A stretch of 64,000 bases of DNA from Gaiellales bacterium (GTDB lineage: Bacteria > Actinomycetota > Thermoleophilia > Gaiellales > JAICJC01), in the NCBI GenBank assembly GCA_036403155.1, contig DASWRM010000007.1:1-64000 (forward strand). Reading direction: 5' to 3'. Of the stretch, positions 32,029-37,091 are shown in pieces. The notes under the pieces were generated by a model, which saw only the letters and a program-made list of their open reading frames with translations, had not been told where the DNA came from and did not search any database. The stretch's first letter is position 1. Each line of letters begins with the position of its first letter. A program made the translations under genes and the position numbers.

Positions 32029-32868
32029 TCAGGCGCGCAGGACGGCGACCGCGGCGACGCCCGCCGCAATCGCGCAGGCTCCCGCCAGCTGCATGCGCGT
32101 GAGCCGTTCGCGGTAGACGAGGAACGACAGCACCGCGGCCACGGCGGCGAACTGCGACGAGAGAACGGCCGGCACCGCCACGCCGTCACGGGCGCCGATG
32201 ATGTAGGCCGCGAACCCGACCACCTCGGCAACGCCGGAGAATACGACGAGCAGCAGTGCCGGCCCCGGGCGCACGAGCCTTCGTGAGACGGCCAGCGGCA
32301 CGGCAACGCCGGCAACGCCGATGGCGCGGGCGACGAGGATCGTCCACATCGGGCCGACCGCCTCCCCGGCCCGGGAGCTCGCGACAAGGCCCACACCGAA
32401 GACCGTCGCGGCGGCCAGAGCCAGCAGCGCGGGCCGCAGGTGCAGATCCTGGAGCCGCGCCTGGTATGTCACGACCACCACGCCGGCCGCGACCACCGCG
32501 AGCGCGACCGCCACGCCCGGCGAGAGCCGCTCGCCGAGGAACGCAACCGAGAACACCGCCGCGAGCGCTCCCTCCGTGGACGAGATAGGGGCGACGACGC
32601 CGACCTTTCCGACGCGGAGCGCCGCGTAGACCAGCGACAGACCGCCCACGGAGGTCACACCCCCGAGGAGCGCCCAGAGCGCGCCCCGCGGCCCCGTGTC
32701 CGGAAGGCCCTCGGCGACGGGCGCGGCAACCGCCATGACGGCGAGACCGGTGACCATGACGTACGCGAGCACCTGCTGGGAGCCGATCATCCGCGTCGAC
32801 CGGGAGGCGACCACCGTCGACCCGCCCCACATGAGAGCGGCGAGGACGCCGCCCAGCACCGCGGTCAC
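32029..32868 (-). CDS. EamA/DMT family transporter
   Basis: 279 residues, ten hydrophobic segments in two homologous halves. The first half opens with VLGGVLAALMWGGSTVVASRST and contains APISSTEGALAAVFSVAFLGERLSPG; the second half repeats this as PAVLSSQFAAVAAVLSFLVYRERLT, the conserved Glu-Arg end of each EamA domain. Such proteins export amino acids, nucleosides or other metabolites; this substrate is not predictable. The GTG start overlaps the thiL stop codon (GTGA), so it is expressed as the second gene of a thiL operon. Confidence 0.85.
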   Translation of the reverse strand: MTAVLGGVLAALMWGGSTVVASRSTRMIGSQQVLAYVMVTGLAVMAVAAPVAEGLPDTGPRGALWALLGGVTSVGGLSLVYAALRVGKVGVVAPISSTEGALAAVFSVAFLGERLSPGVAVALAVVAAGVVVVTYQARLQDLHLRPALLALAAATVFGVGLVASSRAGEAVGPMWTILVARAIGVAGVAVPLAVSRRLVRPGPALLLVVFSGVAEVVGFAAYIIGARDGVAVPAVLSSQFAAVAAVLSFLVYRERLTRMQLAGACAIAAGVAAVAVLRA

Positions 32869-33686
32869 CGGAAATGATCCCAGCCGGCGAGCCGTGCCGG
32901 GTGTCCGTCACCGTCGACGAGCACGACCTCATCACCGCCGGTCAGCTCGCCCACGCGCGTTAGCCACTCGGGCAACGGGTGGGACTCCGGCACGGCGACG
33001 AGCAGCTCATAGTCCTCTCCCCCTGCTGCGGCCTGCTCGATCGTCGCGCCGGCCGCCCGCGGGAGCAGCTCGAGCTCGACGCGAGCGCCGCATCCCGACG
33101 CACGGGCGAGCCGGCCGGCGTCCGCTGCGATCCCGTCCGAGAGGTCGATCATGGCGTGCGCGAAGGCGGCCAGCGTCCGACCCTCGGCGAGGCGGGGCGT
33201 CACCGCCGCGGTGTACCCGGATGCGGCCTGCCCGCCGAGCCGGCCGGTCACCGCGAGCACGTCGCCGGGCCGGCCGCCGGACCGCAGCACCGGGCGGTCG
33301 GCGCGGCCGACCGCCGTGACGGTGAGCGTCAGCCGCTCGCATGCGGAGAGGTCGCCGCCCACGAGCGGCACACCGTGCGACGCAACGCCGGCGGCCAGCT
33401 GCTGGGCATCCGCATATCCCGCCGGCAGGCCGAAGGCCGCCAGCAGGCAGACGGGCACCGCACCCATCGCCGCGACGTCCGAGAGGTTGACGGCAGCGGC
33501 CCGCGCCCCGATCTCGCGGGCCGTCGAGCGCGAGCGCTCGAAGTGCACGCCCTCCACCAGCATGTCGCAGCAGATCACCGTGCCGTCGGCGAGCACGGCC
33601 GCGTCGTCGCCGATCCCGGTCGCGATCTCGTCGCCGGATCCGGCAACGCCGGCGATCAGCTCGAGCAGCTGCTGCTCTGATAGCAT
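32865..33686 (-). CDS. thiL: thiamine-monophosphate kinase
   Basis: 273 residues. GIGDDAAVL (metal and ATP Asp), CCDMLVEGVHF, NLSDVAAMGAVP, LVGGDLSACERLTLTVTAVG, MIDLSDGIAADAGRL and AAGGEDYELLVAVP are the AIR-synthase/ThiL landmarks. It phosphorylates thiamine monophosphate to the cofactor TPP. ATG 33686 follows TACATT by seven bases and the preceding in-frame TTG is not needed. No TPP riboswitch could fit. It is divergent from the phe leader, with interleaved promoters. Confidence 0.9.
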   Translation of the reverse strand: MLSEQQLLELIAGVAGSGDEIATGIGDDAAVLADGTVICCDMLVEGVHFERSRSTAREIGARAAAVNLSDVAAMGAVPVCLLAAFGLPAGYADAQQLAAGVASHGVPLVGGDLSACERLTLTVTAVGRADRPVLRSGGRPGDVLAVTGRLGGQAASGYTAAVTPRLAEGRTLAAFAHAMIDLSDGIAADAGRLARASGCGARVELELLPRAAGATIEQAAAGGEDYELLVAVPESHPLPEWLTRVGELTGGDEVVLVDGDGHPARLAGWDHFR

Positions 33687-33699
33687 CCGGCGCAATGTA
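33681..33699. promoter_or_regulatory. interleaved divergent -10 elements (thiL / phe leader)
   Basis: Plus TAGCAT (33681-33686) ends eight bases before leader ATG 33695. Minus TACATT (33699-33694) ends seven bases before thiL ATG 33686. Each box lies in the transcribed region of the other, so the two promoters should compete. Confidence 0.5.
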
Positions 33700-33751
33700 C
33701 CGGCTGCCCTTCACGAGCTTCGCCTTTACCACCCGCACGGGAGGCTTGTGA
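33695..33751 (+). CDS. pheL: phenylalanine-containing leader peptide
   Basis: An 18-codon reading frame encoding MYRLPFTSFAFTTRTGGL, with Phe at codons 6, 9 and 11 (TTC, TTC, TTT) and TGA at 33749-33751. It precedes a hairpin with a U6 tract and then pheA. Enteric pheA has an analogous Phe-rich leader (pheL), but this sequence is not homologous to it. A -10 element TAGCAT lies eight bases before the ATG, so the leader is translated from the very 5' end of the mRNA. Stalling at the Phe codons would leave GGGAGGC (33739-33745) free to pair with GCCTCCC (33780-33786). Confidence 0.75.
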   Translation: MYRLPFTSFAFTTRTGGL

Positions 33752-33786
33752 GCGCGCCGGAACATCCGCGAGCGTTCTGGCCTCCC
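33739..33786 (+). promoter_or_regulatory. antiterminator pairing of the pheA attenuator
   Basis: GGGAGGC (33739-33745, codons 15-17 of the leader) is the exact complement of GCCTCCC (33780-33786). Pairing them blocks the terminator stem that uses the same GCCTCCC. Confidence 0.65.
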
Positions 33787-33803
33787 ACCGGGAGGCCTTT
33801 TTT
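33779..33803 (+). terminator. Rho-independent terminator of the pheA attenuator
   Basis: GGCCTCCC (33779-33786), loop ACC, GGGAGGCC (33790-33797), then TTTTTT (33798-33803). Perfect 8-bp GC-rich stem and U-tract ending directly at the pheA ATG (33804). GGGAGG of the 3' arm is also the pheA Shine-Dalgarno sequence. Confidence 0.8.
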
Positions 33804-34637
33804 ATGACCCTTCCCGTCGCCCATTTCGGCGAGGAGGGCGCGTACGCCGCCGAGGCGGCCGGGCGGATGTATCCGGACGCCGATCTGGTCGCGTGCCATT
33901 CCGTCCCCGACGTCGTGCGCGCGGTGACGCGCGGTGACGCGGTCTGCGGCGTGCTGCCGATCGAGAACTCGCTGGCCGGAGTCGTCCCCGAGACGTACGA
34001 CGTGCTCGCGCATGCACCCCTTTCGATCGTCGACGAGACGGTGCTCGCCGTGCCGCACGTCCTGGTCGGCCTGGCCGGCACCAACATCGACGCGCTCGCG
34101 CGGATCCACTCGCATCCGATGGCGCTCACCCAGTGCAGGCGGTTCCTCTCCTCACTCCCCGACACGCTGCCGGAGGTCGCCCCGAGCACGGCCGGCGCGG
34201 CGCGGCGGGTCGCGGAGTCCGGCGATCTTCGCCAGGCGGCCATCTCGTCGCGCTGGGCGGCCGAGCGCTACGGCTTGACGGTGCTGCTGAACGACGTGTC
34301 GGACCACGCCCAGAACTACACGCGCTTCGTCGCGGTCGCCGCGCACACGCGGATCGATCGCAAGGAGGGCGAGCCCTGGCGCTGCGCCATCCGGTTCGTC
34401 ACGCACCACCATCCCGGCGCGCTGCATGACGCGATCGAGCCGCTCCGGCGCTTCGGCGTCAACATGACGTCGCTCCAGTCGCGTCCGATCCCGGGCCGGC
34501 CCTGGGACTACCAGTTCTACGCCGACCTCGAGGGCCACCCGCTCGACCGGCCGGTGGGCGAGGCGCTCCGCGAGATGGCCGGCACGGTCGCGGAGCTGGC
34601 GCATCTCGGCTGCTACCCCGCGCATCCGCGGCCATGA
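33804..34637 (+). CDS. pheA: prephenate dehydratase with ACT regulatory domain
   Basis: 277 residues, monofunctional (no chorismate mutase). The catalytic domain runs from VAHFGEEGAYAAEAA through GVLPIENSLAG to the TRF motif NYTRF (Thr173), the ACT domain covers residues about 190-270. The Phe-binding ACT signature reads GALH and LQSRP, against GALV-like and ESRP in well-studied enzymes, so feedback control may differ. It converts prephenate to phenylpyruvate. ATG 33804 follows the attenuator U-tract immediately and GGGAGG (33790-33795) is eight bases upstream. Its stop codon overlaps the helicase start. Confidence 0.93.
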   Translation: MTLPVAHFGEEGAYAAEAAGRMYPDADLVACHSVPDVVRAVTRGDAVCGVLPIENSLAGVVPETYDVLAHAPLSIVDETVLAVPHVLVGLAGTNIDALARIHSHPMALTQCRRFLSSLPDTLPEVAPSTAGAARRVAESGDLRQAAISSRWAAERYGLTVLLNDVSDHAQNYTRFVAVAAHTRIDRKEGEPWRCAIRFVTHHHPGALHDAIEPLRRFGVNMTSLQSRPIPGRPWDYQFYADLEGHPLDRPVGEALREMAGTVAELAHLGCYPAHPRP

Positions 34638-36886
34638 CCGCGGCCGTCATGGCGCCGTGGGAGCCAGTGCTCGCGTTCGGCACGGCGCCCGACGGCACCC
34701 AGCTCGTCCACCGGTCGCGCACGCCGGCGCGCGCGGCCGAGTACGCGCCCGTGCCCGACGGCCTCGAACCGGAGCTCGCCCGTGCGCTGGAGGCTGCCGG
34801 GATCGACCGGCTCTACAGCCACCAGGCCGACGTGTGGGAGGCGGCCCGAAACGGCGACGCCATGGTCGTCACGGGCACCGCCAGCGGCAAGTCGCTGGCG
34901 TTCAACCTGCCGGTGCTGGACGCCGTCGCCCGCGACACGTCGGCACGCGCGCTCTACCTCTACCCGACCAAGGCGCTCGCGCAGGACCAGGCGCGCGCCC
35001 TGGCCGCGCTGCACGCACCCGGGGCACGGGTCGCGATCTACGACGGCGACACGCCCTCCGGGGAGCGACGACAGGTTCGGCGCTGGGCCAACCTCGTGCT
35101 GACGAATCCCGACATGCTCCACGTCGGCATCCTGCCGGCGCACTCCGCATGGGCCGATGTGATGGCGAACCTGCGCTTCGTCGTCGTGGACGAGGCGCAT
35201 GCCTACCGGGGCGTCTTCGGCTCCCACGTGGCCAACGTTCTGGCACGCCTGCGGCGGATCGCCGCGGCGTACGGCGCCGACCCGCGATTCCTGCTGGCCT
35301 CGGCCACGATCGCCAATCCCGCCGCGGCCGGCCGGACGCTCGCCGGCCGCGAGCCGGCGGTGATCGACCGGGACGGCTCGCCGGCGGCCGAGCGCGACAT
35401 CTGCGTGTGGAACCCGCCGCTGCTGGACGTCGACCTCGGCGTCCGCGCCAGCACGCTCGGGGAGGCGGCAACGCTGATGGCGGGGCTGGTCGCCCGCGGC
35501 CAGCGAACGATCGTGTTCGCCAAATCGCGCCGTGCCTGCGAGCTGGTGCACCGGTACGCCCGCGAGGGGCTGCGCCTGAACGCCCCCGAGCTGGCGGCGA
35601 GGATCGCACCGTACCGGGCGGGCTACACGCCCGAGCAGCGGCGCCGCATCGAGCAGCGGCTGACGAGCGGTGACCTGCTCGGCGTGGTGGCGACCAGCGC
35701 GCTCGAGCTGGGCGTCGACATCGGGCTGCTCGACTGCGCGATCAGCGTCGGCTTCCCCGGCGCGATGGCCTCGCTGCGCCAGCAGTGGGGCCGCGCCGGG
35801 CGCCGCGGCCTGGGCCTCGGCGTGCTCATCGCGGGCGAGGACCAGCTCGACCAGTACCTGGCCCAGCACCCCGACGAGCTGGTCGCGCGGCCGGCCGAGG
35901 CCGCGGTCTCGAACCCCGCGAACCCGGCGGTGCTCGAGGGTCATCTGCGCTGTGCCGCCGCCGAGCTGCCCCTGACGCCGGCAGACGCCGAGCGGTTCGG
36001 GGACGACGGCATGGCGCTGGCGGAACGGATGCCCGACCTGGTGCGGACGCCCGCGGGGCTCGCCTACCGGGGCGCTGACCATCCAGCCGCGCGCATCTCG
36101 CTGCGATCGTCTTCGCCCGATTCGGTCGCGGTGGTCGAGAGGGAGACAGGGACGCTGCTCGGGACGGTCGACGGCGCGCGGGCCGACTCGACGGTGCACG
36201 AGGGGGCGGTCTACCTGCACCTCGGGGAGCAGTACCTCGTCACGTCGCTCGACCACGGCGCCGGCGTCGCGCTGGTCACGCCCTTCGACGCCGACTACTA
36301 CACGCAGACCAAGCGCCTGTCCTCGACCCGGATCGTGGCGCCCCGCGAGCATCGGCACGTGCCCGGCGCCGATGTCTGGTTCGGGGACATCGAGGCGACC
36401 GAGCAGGTGATCGCCTACCAGCGCAAGCGCGTCGCCGACCACAAGCCGATCGATCTGGTTGCCCTCGACATGCCGGAGCGGAGCTTCACCACGGAGGCCG
36501 TGTGGTTCGTGCCGGAGCGCCCGCCGGAGGGGCCGGCGCTGCTCGGCTCCCTGCACGCCGCGGAGCACTCGATGATCGGCCTGCTCCCGCTGCTCGCCAT
36601 CGCGGACCGCGGCGACATCGGCGGGCTGTCGATCGACCTGCATCCGCAGACCGGCCGGCCCACCGTCTTCGTCTACGACGGCCACCCTGGCGGGGCCGGC
36701 ATCGCCGAGCAGGGCTACCGGCGTTTCGAGCAGTGGGTATCGCGCACCGCGCACCTGCTGCACGAGTGCCCGTGCGACAAGGGCTGTCCGTCGTGCGTCC
36801 AGTCGCCGAAGTGCGGCAACCTGAACGAGCCGCTCGACAAGGCAGGCGCCCGGGCGCTGCTGGCCGGCATCGGCGTGCTAGAGTAG
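34634..36886 (+). CDS. DEAD/DEAH-box helicase with DUF1998 C-terminal domain (YprA/Mrf1-like)
   Basis: 750 residues. The Q-motif-like IDRLYSHQADVWEA, Walker A VVTGTASGKSLAFN (near residue 82), TNPDMLH, DEAH box VVVDEAHAYRG (near residue 187), ASATIANP and QQWGRAGRRG (motif VI) define an SF2 helicase. The C-terminal DUF1998 region ends with the four-Cys cluster ECPCDKGCPSC and CVQSPKCG, as in Mrf1/MrfA helicases that act in UvrA-independent excision repair. The MrfB-type nuclease partner is not next to it. The ATG overlaps the pheA stop codon, so it shares the pheA attenuator-controlled transcript. Confidence 0.88.
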   Translation: MTAAVMAPWEPVLAFGTAPDGTQLVHRSRTPARAAEYAPVPDGLEPELARALEAAGIDRLYSHQADVWEAARNGDAMVVTGTASGKSLAFNLPVLDAVARDTSARALYLYPTKALAQDQARALAALHAPGARVAIYDGDTPSGERRQVRRWANLVLTNPDMLHVGILPAHSAWADVMANLRFVVVDEAHAYRGVFGSHVANVLARLRRIAAAYGADPRFLLASATIANPAAAGRTLAGREPAVIDRDGSPAAERDICVWNPPLLDVDLGVRASTLGEAATLMAGLVARGQRTIVFAKSRRACELVHRYAREGLRLNAPELAARIAPYRAGYTPEQRRRIEQRLTSGDLLGVVATSALELGVDIGLLDCAISVGFPGAMASLRQQWGRAGRRGLGLGVLIAGEDQLDQYLAQHPDELVARPAEAAVSNPANPAVLEGHLRCAAAELPLTPADAERFGDDGMALAERMPDLVRTPAGLAYRGADHPAARISLRSSSPDSVAVVERETGTLLGTVDGARADSTVHEGAVYLHLGEQYLVTSLDHGAGVALVTPFDADYYTQTKRLSSTRIVAPREHRHVPGADVWFGDIEATEQVIAYQRKRVADHKPIDLVALDMPERSFTTEAVWFVPERPPEGPALLGSLHAAEHSMIGLLPLLAIADRGDIGGLSIDLHPQTGRPTVFVYDGHPGGAGIAEQGYRRFEQWVSRTAHLLHECPCDKGCPSCVQSPKCGNLNEPLDKAGARALLAGIGVLE
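36879..36884 (+). promoter_or_regulatory. -10 element of the B12 riboswitch operon
   Basis: TAGAGT overlaps the stop codon of the helicase gene (TAG 36884-36886) and would start RNA just before the first riboswitch stem. Confidence 0.45.
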
Positions 36887-37056
36887 CCGCCCCGCGGGCG
36901 GTCAAGGGAAACCGGTGCAAATCCGGTGCGGTCCCGCCGCTGTGAGGGCGTCCGTCGCGCGTGCCGATGGCAGCCACTGGCCGAAGGGCCGGGAAGGCCA
37001 GCACGACGGCCCGGAAGATCCGGGAGACGCGCCCGAGCCAGAAGACCTGTCCTCCC
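36887..37056 (+). ncRNA. cobalamin riboswitch
   Basis: The conserved core is present in order: GGGAAACCGGTGCAAATCC (36906-36924), CGGTCCCGCCGCTGTGA (36929-36945), the B12-box-like GCAGCCACTGG (36970-36980), GGCCGGGAAGGCC (36987-36999) and the terminal GAGCCAGAAGACCTG (37035-37049). It lies between the helicase gene and a run of six overlapping genes for an ECF transporter and DUF4430 proteins, identifying them as B12-related. Adenosylcobalamin binding would repress. The expression platform is the anti-Shine-Dalgarno hairpin that follows. Confidence 0.93.
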
Positions 37057-37091
37057 GCAGACGCATGTCGAGCCTCTCGAGGAAGGAGGAC
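37049..37091 (+). promoter_or_regulatory. anti-Shine-Dalgarno hairpin of the riboswitch
   Basis: GTCCTCC (37049-37055), at the 3' edge of the aptamer, is the exact complement of GGAGGAC (37085-37091), which contains the Shine-Dalgarno sequence of TTG 37095. This supports translational control and that start codon. A small CCTC/GAGG hairpin (37073-37082) sits in the loop. Confidence 0.7.

Follow-up and report, generated by a model that had tools for sequence, protein, structure and literature searches.

Ribosome-mediated attenuation is a known mechanism, represented by the trp, his and pheA attenuators; its pheA case in the Actinobacteria was not found reported. In the enterobacterial pheA (pheL) attenuator (Rfam RF01859), a Phe-rich leader peptide precedes mutually exclusive antiterminator and terminator structures in front of a gene with prephenate dehydratase activity, and seven of the fifteen residues of the pheL peptide are Phe. 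The locus described here is alike in these respects, but its leader has three Phe codons in 18, its terminator abuts the start codon of the structural gene and contains the Shine-Dalgarno (SD) sequence, and its enzyme shows no chorismate mutase domain.

Within the phylum, the closest systems are the aroR-aroF attenuator of Corynebacterium glutamicum and the trp attenuators of Corynebacterium and Streptomyces. As described in PMC11802643 (for Neshat et al. 2014), aroR-aroF is a Phe-sensing, ribosome-mediated attenuator with a Phe-Tyr-Phe leader in front of the DAHP synthase gene aroF. Compared by that description, it is likewise actinobacterial, ribosome-mediated, Phe-sensing and part of the aromatic pathway, whereas the gene studied here is pheA and its leader carries three spaced Phe codons. 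The trp attenuators, as given in PMC1262725, share the architecture found here, with three complementary GC-rich segments (gGCC-rGCy-GGCC) and then a U tract; they differ by their Trp codons and by serving the trp operon. The same source describes the actinobacterial LEU element at leuA, a leader peptide combined with a pseudoknot. Likened in outline and by description, it resembles a Phe leader form of the Gaiellaceae presented below; the pheA locus differs from it in using an intrinsic terminator, and three pairing segments (2, 3 and 4) account for its leader. A 2005 survey of Actinobacteria reports no RNA control for phenylalanine genes, and the literature searched gave no account of attenuation at pheA in Actinobacteria, Thermoleophilia or Gaiellales. 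In Rfam, no family reached its cut-off on the pheA leader, the Phe_leader model RF01859 giving 20 bits (E 0.46) against a cut-off of 55 bits.

The window, i.e. the whole 64 kb stretch of DNA that was analysed, contains the following features at and around pheA; the leader ORF, the segments, the T6 tract and the pheA ATG were read directly from the sequence.

32865..33695, minus strand: thiL, divergent neighbour (TIGR01379, 210 bits, cut-off 184)
33682..33687, plus strand: TAGCAT, a candidate -10 element, with 7 nt between it and the leader ATG
33695..33751, plus strand: leader peptide ORF MYRLPFTSFAFTTRTGGL, ATG at 33695, stop codon TGA at 33749-33751
33729..33734, plus strand: segment 1, CCACCC, which may pair with segment 2 when the ribosome is absent (protector)
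33739..33746, plus strand: segment 2, GGGAGGCT, antiterminator 5' arm, located where the leader ORF ends
33750..33777, plus strand: predicted hairpin in the spacer that separates segment 2 from segment 3, stacking inside the antiterminator
33779..33786, plus strand: segment 3, GGCCTCCC, the arm common to the antiterminator (with segment 2) and the terminator (with segment 4)
33790..33797, plus strand: segment 4, GGGAGGCC, 3' arm of the terminator, including GGGAGG
33798..33803, plus strand: T6 tract, in which the transcript is expected to end, immediately before the pheA start codon
33804..34637, plus strand: pheA, prephenate dehydratase, the regulated gene (PF00800 PDT, 3.9e-53; from the ORF list)

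The Phe codons of the leader are codons 6, 9 and 11 (TTC 33710-33712, TTC 33719-33721 and TTT 33725-33727), and they fit the gene that follows, as a prephenate dehydratase is encoded behind them. An intrinsic terminator, an 8-bp stem GGCCTCCC/GGGAGGCC with a loop of 3 and T6, lies between the leader ORF and the structural gene. The cores of segments 2 and 3 are GGGAGGC at 33739-33745 and GCCTCCC at 33780-33786. A sequence-only reading of this DNA had described an 18-residue leader with Phe at these codons, the three segments and the six Ts, and every one of its coordinates proved right to the base. Besides the PDT domain, the pheA product showed an ACT match below the cut-off. A DEXH helicase-like ORF begins at 34634, within the end of pheA. 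Just past that ORF a cobalamin riboswitch (RF00174, 75 bits) was observed at 36868-37066 on the plus strand, and relative L004 has a second cobalamin riboswitch downstream of its pheA (2360-2538).

With a probability of about 0.88, the pheA leader is a classical ribosome-mediated transcription attenuator that senses charged tRNA-Phe, and the cell probably switches pheA on only when phenylalanine is short. We infer that RNA polymerase would start at or beside the leader ATG, with the ribosome following. When Phe-tRNA is plentiful, the ribosome would reach TGA 33749 and cover segment 2, segments 3 and 4 would pair, and transcription would end in the T tract at about 33803. When Phe-tRNA is scarce, the ribosome would stall at Phe codon 6, 9 or 11 and leave segment 2 free, which would then capture segment 3 before segment 4 is made, giving read-through into pheA.

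The individual parts are rare in the window. On both strands of the 64 kb, only one ORF of 8-31 aa with at least three Phe in six residues and only one perfect terminator of at least 7 bp with T5 were found, as defined by the scan itself; the ORF is the pheA leader and the terminator is the one before pheA, so that the two adjoin each other and pheA. The three-segment pattern occurred once in the window and in 0/100 shuffles. The stem GGCCTCCC/GGGAGGCC was the top terminator-like site in 33000-35000, with 2 overlapping matches compared with a shuffle mean of 0.2, and the leader region folded with a z of -5.12 relative to shuffles. It is very improbable that the hairpin merely terminates another short transcript, with a coincidental leader-like ORF and a pheA promoter elsewhere. 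Such a coincidence would agree with the finding that no clear SD precedes the leader ORF and that no sigma-70 consensus promoter was matched in the leader region. Against it, the next upstream gene, thiL, is divergent, so there is no plus-strand gene upstream for the terminator to serve as its end, pheA starts where the T tract ends and leaves no space for a promoter between, and leader and switch are kept in 5/5 genomes of the family. The position of the candidate TAGCAT would imply a leaderless or near-leaderless leader transcript. All five family members share the arrangement TG[AG]TAGCAT + 7 nt + ATGTAC, a conservation that is confounded because the same bases also encode the start of the divergent thiL.

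The family sample comprised five genomes, that of the window included (family f1). The sequence-only reading had proposed a check in relatives, and leader frame, Phe codons, alternative pairings and terminator were indeed present upstream of pheA in all five, the middle segment being able in each case to pair with either flank, which that reading had stated for the window's leader. The leaders, MYRLPFTSFAFTTRTGGL, MYRLSFCGFAFTTLQGGI, MYSSLQLGFAFTGDTGGG, MYRARFTFPFTTPPGGV and MYRAPFTFPFTTPPGGV, have 17-18 codons of which 2-3 encode Phe, the amino acid to which the product of the gene leads. Each ends in GGAGGC-NNN-TGA, followed by GCCTCC, the terminator and a T-rich tail, and a comparable spacer hairpin was predicted in 5/5 species. 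In L003 the segments covary (CCGGAGGC, GCCTCCGG, CCGGGGGC). Since whole-leader alignment with MAFFT misplaced segment 3 in L003, pairs were counted on hand-cut segments. Across the five, 88% of the cells of the terminator helix were paired and three pairs had changed on both sides, a covariation score equalled in 8/500 shuffles. The antiterminator has six pairs that are invariant in 5/5 and one that changed from G-C to C-G in L003, matched in segment 4; with five genomes, its covariation count by itself did not beat its shuffles. Five genomes of one family make for thin covariation, which is supportive of the paired segments, not conclusive. The complementarity of segment 1 to its partner is kept in the relatives, as CCGG/CCGG in L003; its protector role is tentative, as the minimum-energy fold pairs segment 2 with another upstream stretch.

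The dependence of pairing on ribosome position was investigated by folding the RNA downstream of the ribosome, whose 3' edge was set 15 nt past the first P-site base; the folds describe equilibrium and not folding during transcription. For a ribosome placed at the stop codon, the terminator had a probability of 0.993-1.000 in 5/5 species. A stall at the first or middle Phe codon lowered it to 0.001-0.25 in all five, species lacking a codon not being counted for that codon, and the shared arm was then taken by segment 2. A stall at the last Phe codon gave 0.04-0.14 in L001-L003, but the terminator stayed at 0.995 in L004 and at 0.90 in L005. The antiterminator and terminator thus exclude each other in the folds, with a 5' arm that is covered at the stop and freed by the stall, except for the last-Phe stall in these two species. 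The size of the switch was matched by controls with shuffled upstream sequence in 3, 1, 1, 7 and 17 of 500 in the five species. The proposal that stalling at Phe codons chooses between antiterminator and terminator is therefore supported, within the limits of this model, in five species; that stalling opens the switch held for the first and middle Phe codons wherever present, and for the last in three of five species. Without a ribosome, the fold of L002 favoured the antiterminator (0.95), so the model does not predict for every species that termination is the default when translation is absent.

The window species has a single SD-like sequence before pheA, GGGAGG at 33790-33795, which precedes ATG 33804 by eight nt and lies within the terminator arm. 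The pheA genes of the four relatives, by contrast, begin at some remove from the T tract and have a separate, unpaired GGAGG. Segment 4 would thus double as the pheA ribosome-binding site in the window species, translation may be gated too, and the antiterminated form would also be well translated. A second, translational layer is therefore likely in this species, in which the SD would be free on read-through with the antiterminator formed and hidden in full-length RNA refolded into the terminator hairpin. A stronger version, namely that the hairpin mainly hides the SD and is opened by the leader ribosome, with termination being minor, is unlikely. The position of the sole SD-like sequence in the hairpin arm favours it, as does a precedent from PMC1262725, where actinobacterial ileS T-boxes are thought to act by SD sequestration. 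Sequestration, on the other hand, needs no six-T tail, and the four relatives keep both hairpin and T-rich tail despite their separate, unpaired GGAGG, which means that SD hiding cannot be what is conserved in function.

The conserved feature of the leader is a Phe-codon reading frame that ends on segment 2. This feature argues against a ligand-binding riboswitch, a T-box or a protein-binding leader, any of which would work whether or not the ORF is translated. Such elements also end in terminators before amino-acid genes, as is generally known, but only about 110 nt are available, and no Rfam cut-off was reached here or at L001, L002 and L004; among T-boxes and known riboswitches in Rfam, the only match in the window was the distant cobalamin riboswitch. 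No computed result of this analysis favoured this explanation, which we regard as extremely improbable.

One more leader of this kind was found in the same genome. This trp leader, MPIQRSTWWWTTERGSAR, is followed by a 12-bp terminator with T7 and lies directly before a chorismate-binding TrpE-family gene (genome G000, contig C71 from 24141, locus L168); this second attenuator-like leader makes attenuation in the organism more plausible. When the switch calculation was applied to it, no switch was obtained and the terminator stood at 0.998 in every state. Simple folding found no alternative structure there, so that this model does not explain the trp leader; the same result indicates that the method does not automatically yield a switch such as that at pheA. 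No class I DAHP synthase was found in this genome, and its pheS has no Phe leader.

Within the class, Phe leaders were found in the fetched pheA upstream regions of 5/5 genomes of the window's family and of 18/35 usable Gaiellaceae (family f3), a sister family in the same order, which is taken to be Gaiellales of the class Thermoleophilia. They were found in 0/10 of the sister family f2, 0/1 of f4 and 0/18 of other families of the class, by a scan requiring three Phe in nine residues, which could miss two-Phe leaders; those of L003 and L030 were picked up by visual inspection. A Phe leader is missing from most other lineages of the class. The sister family keeps thiL beside pheA in several genomes, yet has no such leader in the 10 loci sampled. 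A core of 17 nt, GGCTTCGCCTTTACCGG, is identical in L003 and in Gaiellaceae leaders, while shuffled leaders of the window's family shared at most 13, which speaks for one leader common to both families. Gene order differs: thiL lies upstream in the window's family and, by our own reading, a leuB-like C-terminus in many Gaiellaceae. The suggestion of the sequence-only reading that the leader arose independently was neither established nor contradicted, since the leader lies below the enteric Phe_leader cut-off and its core is common to the Gaiellaceae; the 17 identical bases indicate that it was not invented within this lineage alone. The last leader Phe codon is TTT in 22/23 Phe leaders (33725-33727 in the window and the 22 others), as compared with 2/100 Phe codons in 13 pheA genes of those leaders.

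In the Gaiellaceae form, the leader stop codon TAG lies inside a hairpin, GCTAGCCGGCG...CGCCGGCTAGC, without a T run. The hairpin is near-invariant, GCUAG[CU]CGGC(G)...(C)GCCG[GA]CUAGC, and stems with CTAGTCGGC/GCCGACTAGC show a compensatory change. A covariance model of the element matched 38/129 genomes at E <= 0.01, with a doubtful weak tail; one match in the genome to which the window belongs (E 0.008) lacks a leader and seems spurious. Copies precede pheA, gltB (PF00310, PF04898) and thrC (TIGR00260, 173 bits over 167), and the leader peptides at gltB and thrC differ in composition from the Phe leader. The gltB loci are L078, L086, L191-L193, L196-L198, L200-L204, L206-L208, L210 and L212, and the thrC loci L199 and L205. 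At L077 and L079-L081 the element is followed by a small zinc-ribbon-like, Cys-rich ORF. At L045, L047, L049 and L050 (Gaiellaceae genus g38), the Phe leader element and pheA are also separated by a small Cys-rich ORF (about 50 aa, CxC...CxxC), and in genus g36 a similar one follows the element on its own.

The loop of this element pairs better with its own downstream segment than with shuffled ones (mean 16.6 versus 13.9, sd 0.37, 42 elements, with some noise added by an automatic arm finder that misplaced the hairpin in a few, e.g. L198 and L203), which makes a loop-downstream pseudoknot likely. Pairing of the leader Phe codons (GCCUUU) with the pheA SD (AAAGGC), for which the LEU element offered a precedent, was discarded for the Gaiellaceae, as own pairs scored 17.2, hardly above the 16.6 of swapped pairs. 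The element had no match in Rfam, and no description of it was found. There are about even chances that a GFAFT Phe leader core is common across the Gaiellales and joined to two unrelated expression platforms, the terminator of the window's family and the Gaiellaceae stop-codon UAG hairpin whose loop pairs with a downstream GGCGG-type segment as a pseudoknot, an element that is reused before gltB and thrC. If so, the Gaiellaceae element would act as a modular, terminator-free switch that senses peptides and is reused with other leaders, and the sister families would offer a comparative case of one sensor peptide coupled to different RNA outputs. The finding at pheA predicts an ORF and a short RNA of a kind normally missed by gene-calling, and pheA attenuation through the ribosome, as known in enteric bacteria, very probably also operates in uncultured high-GC Actinobacteria.
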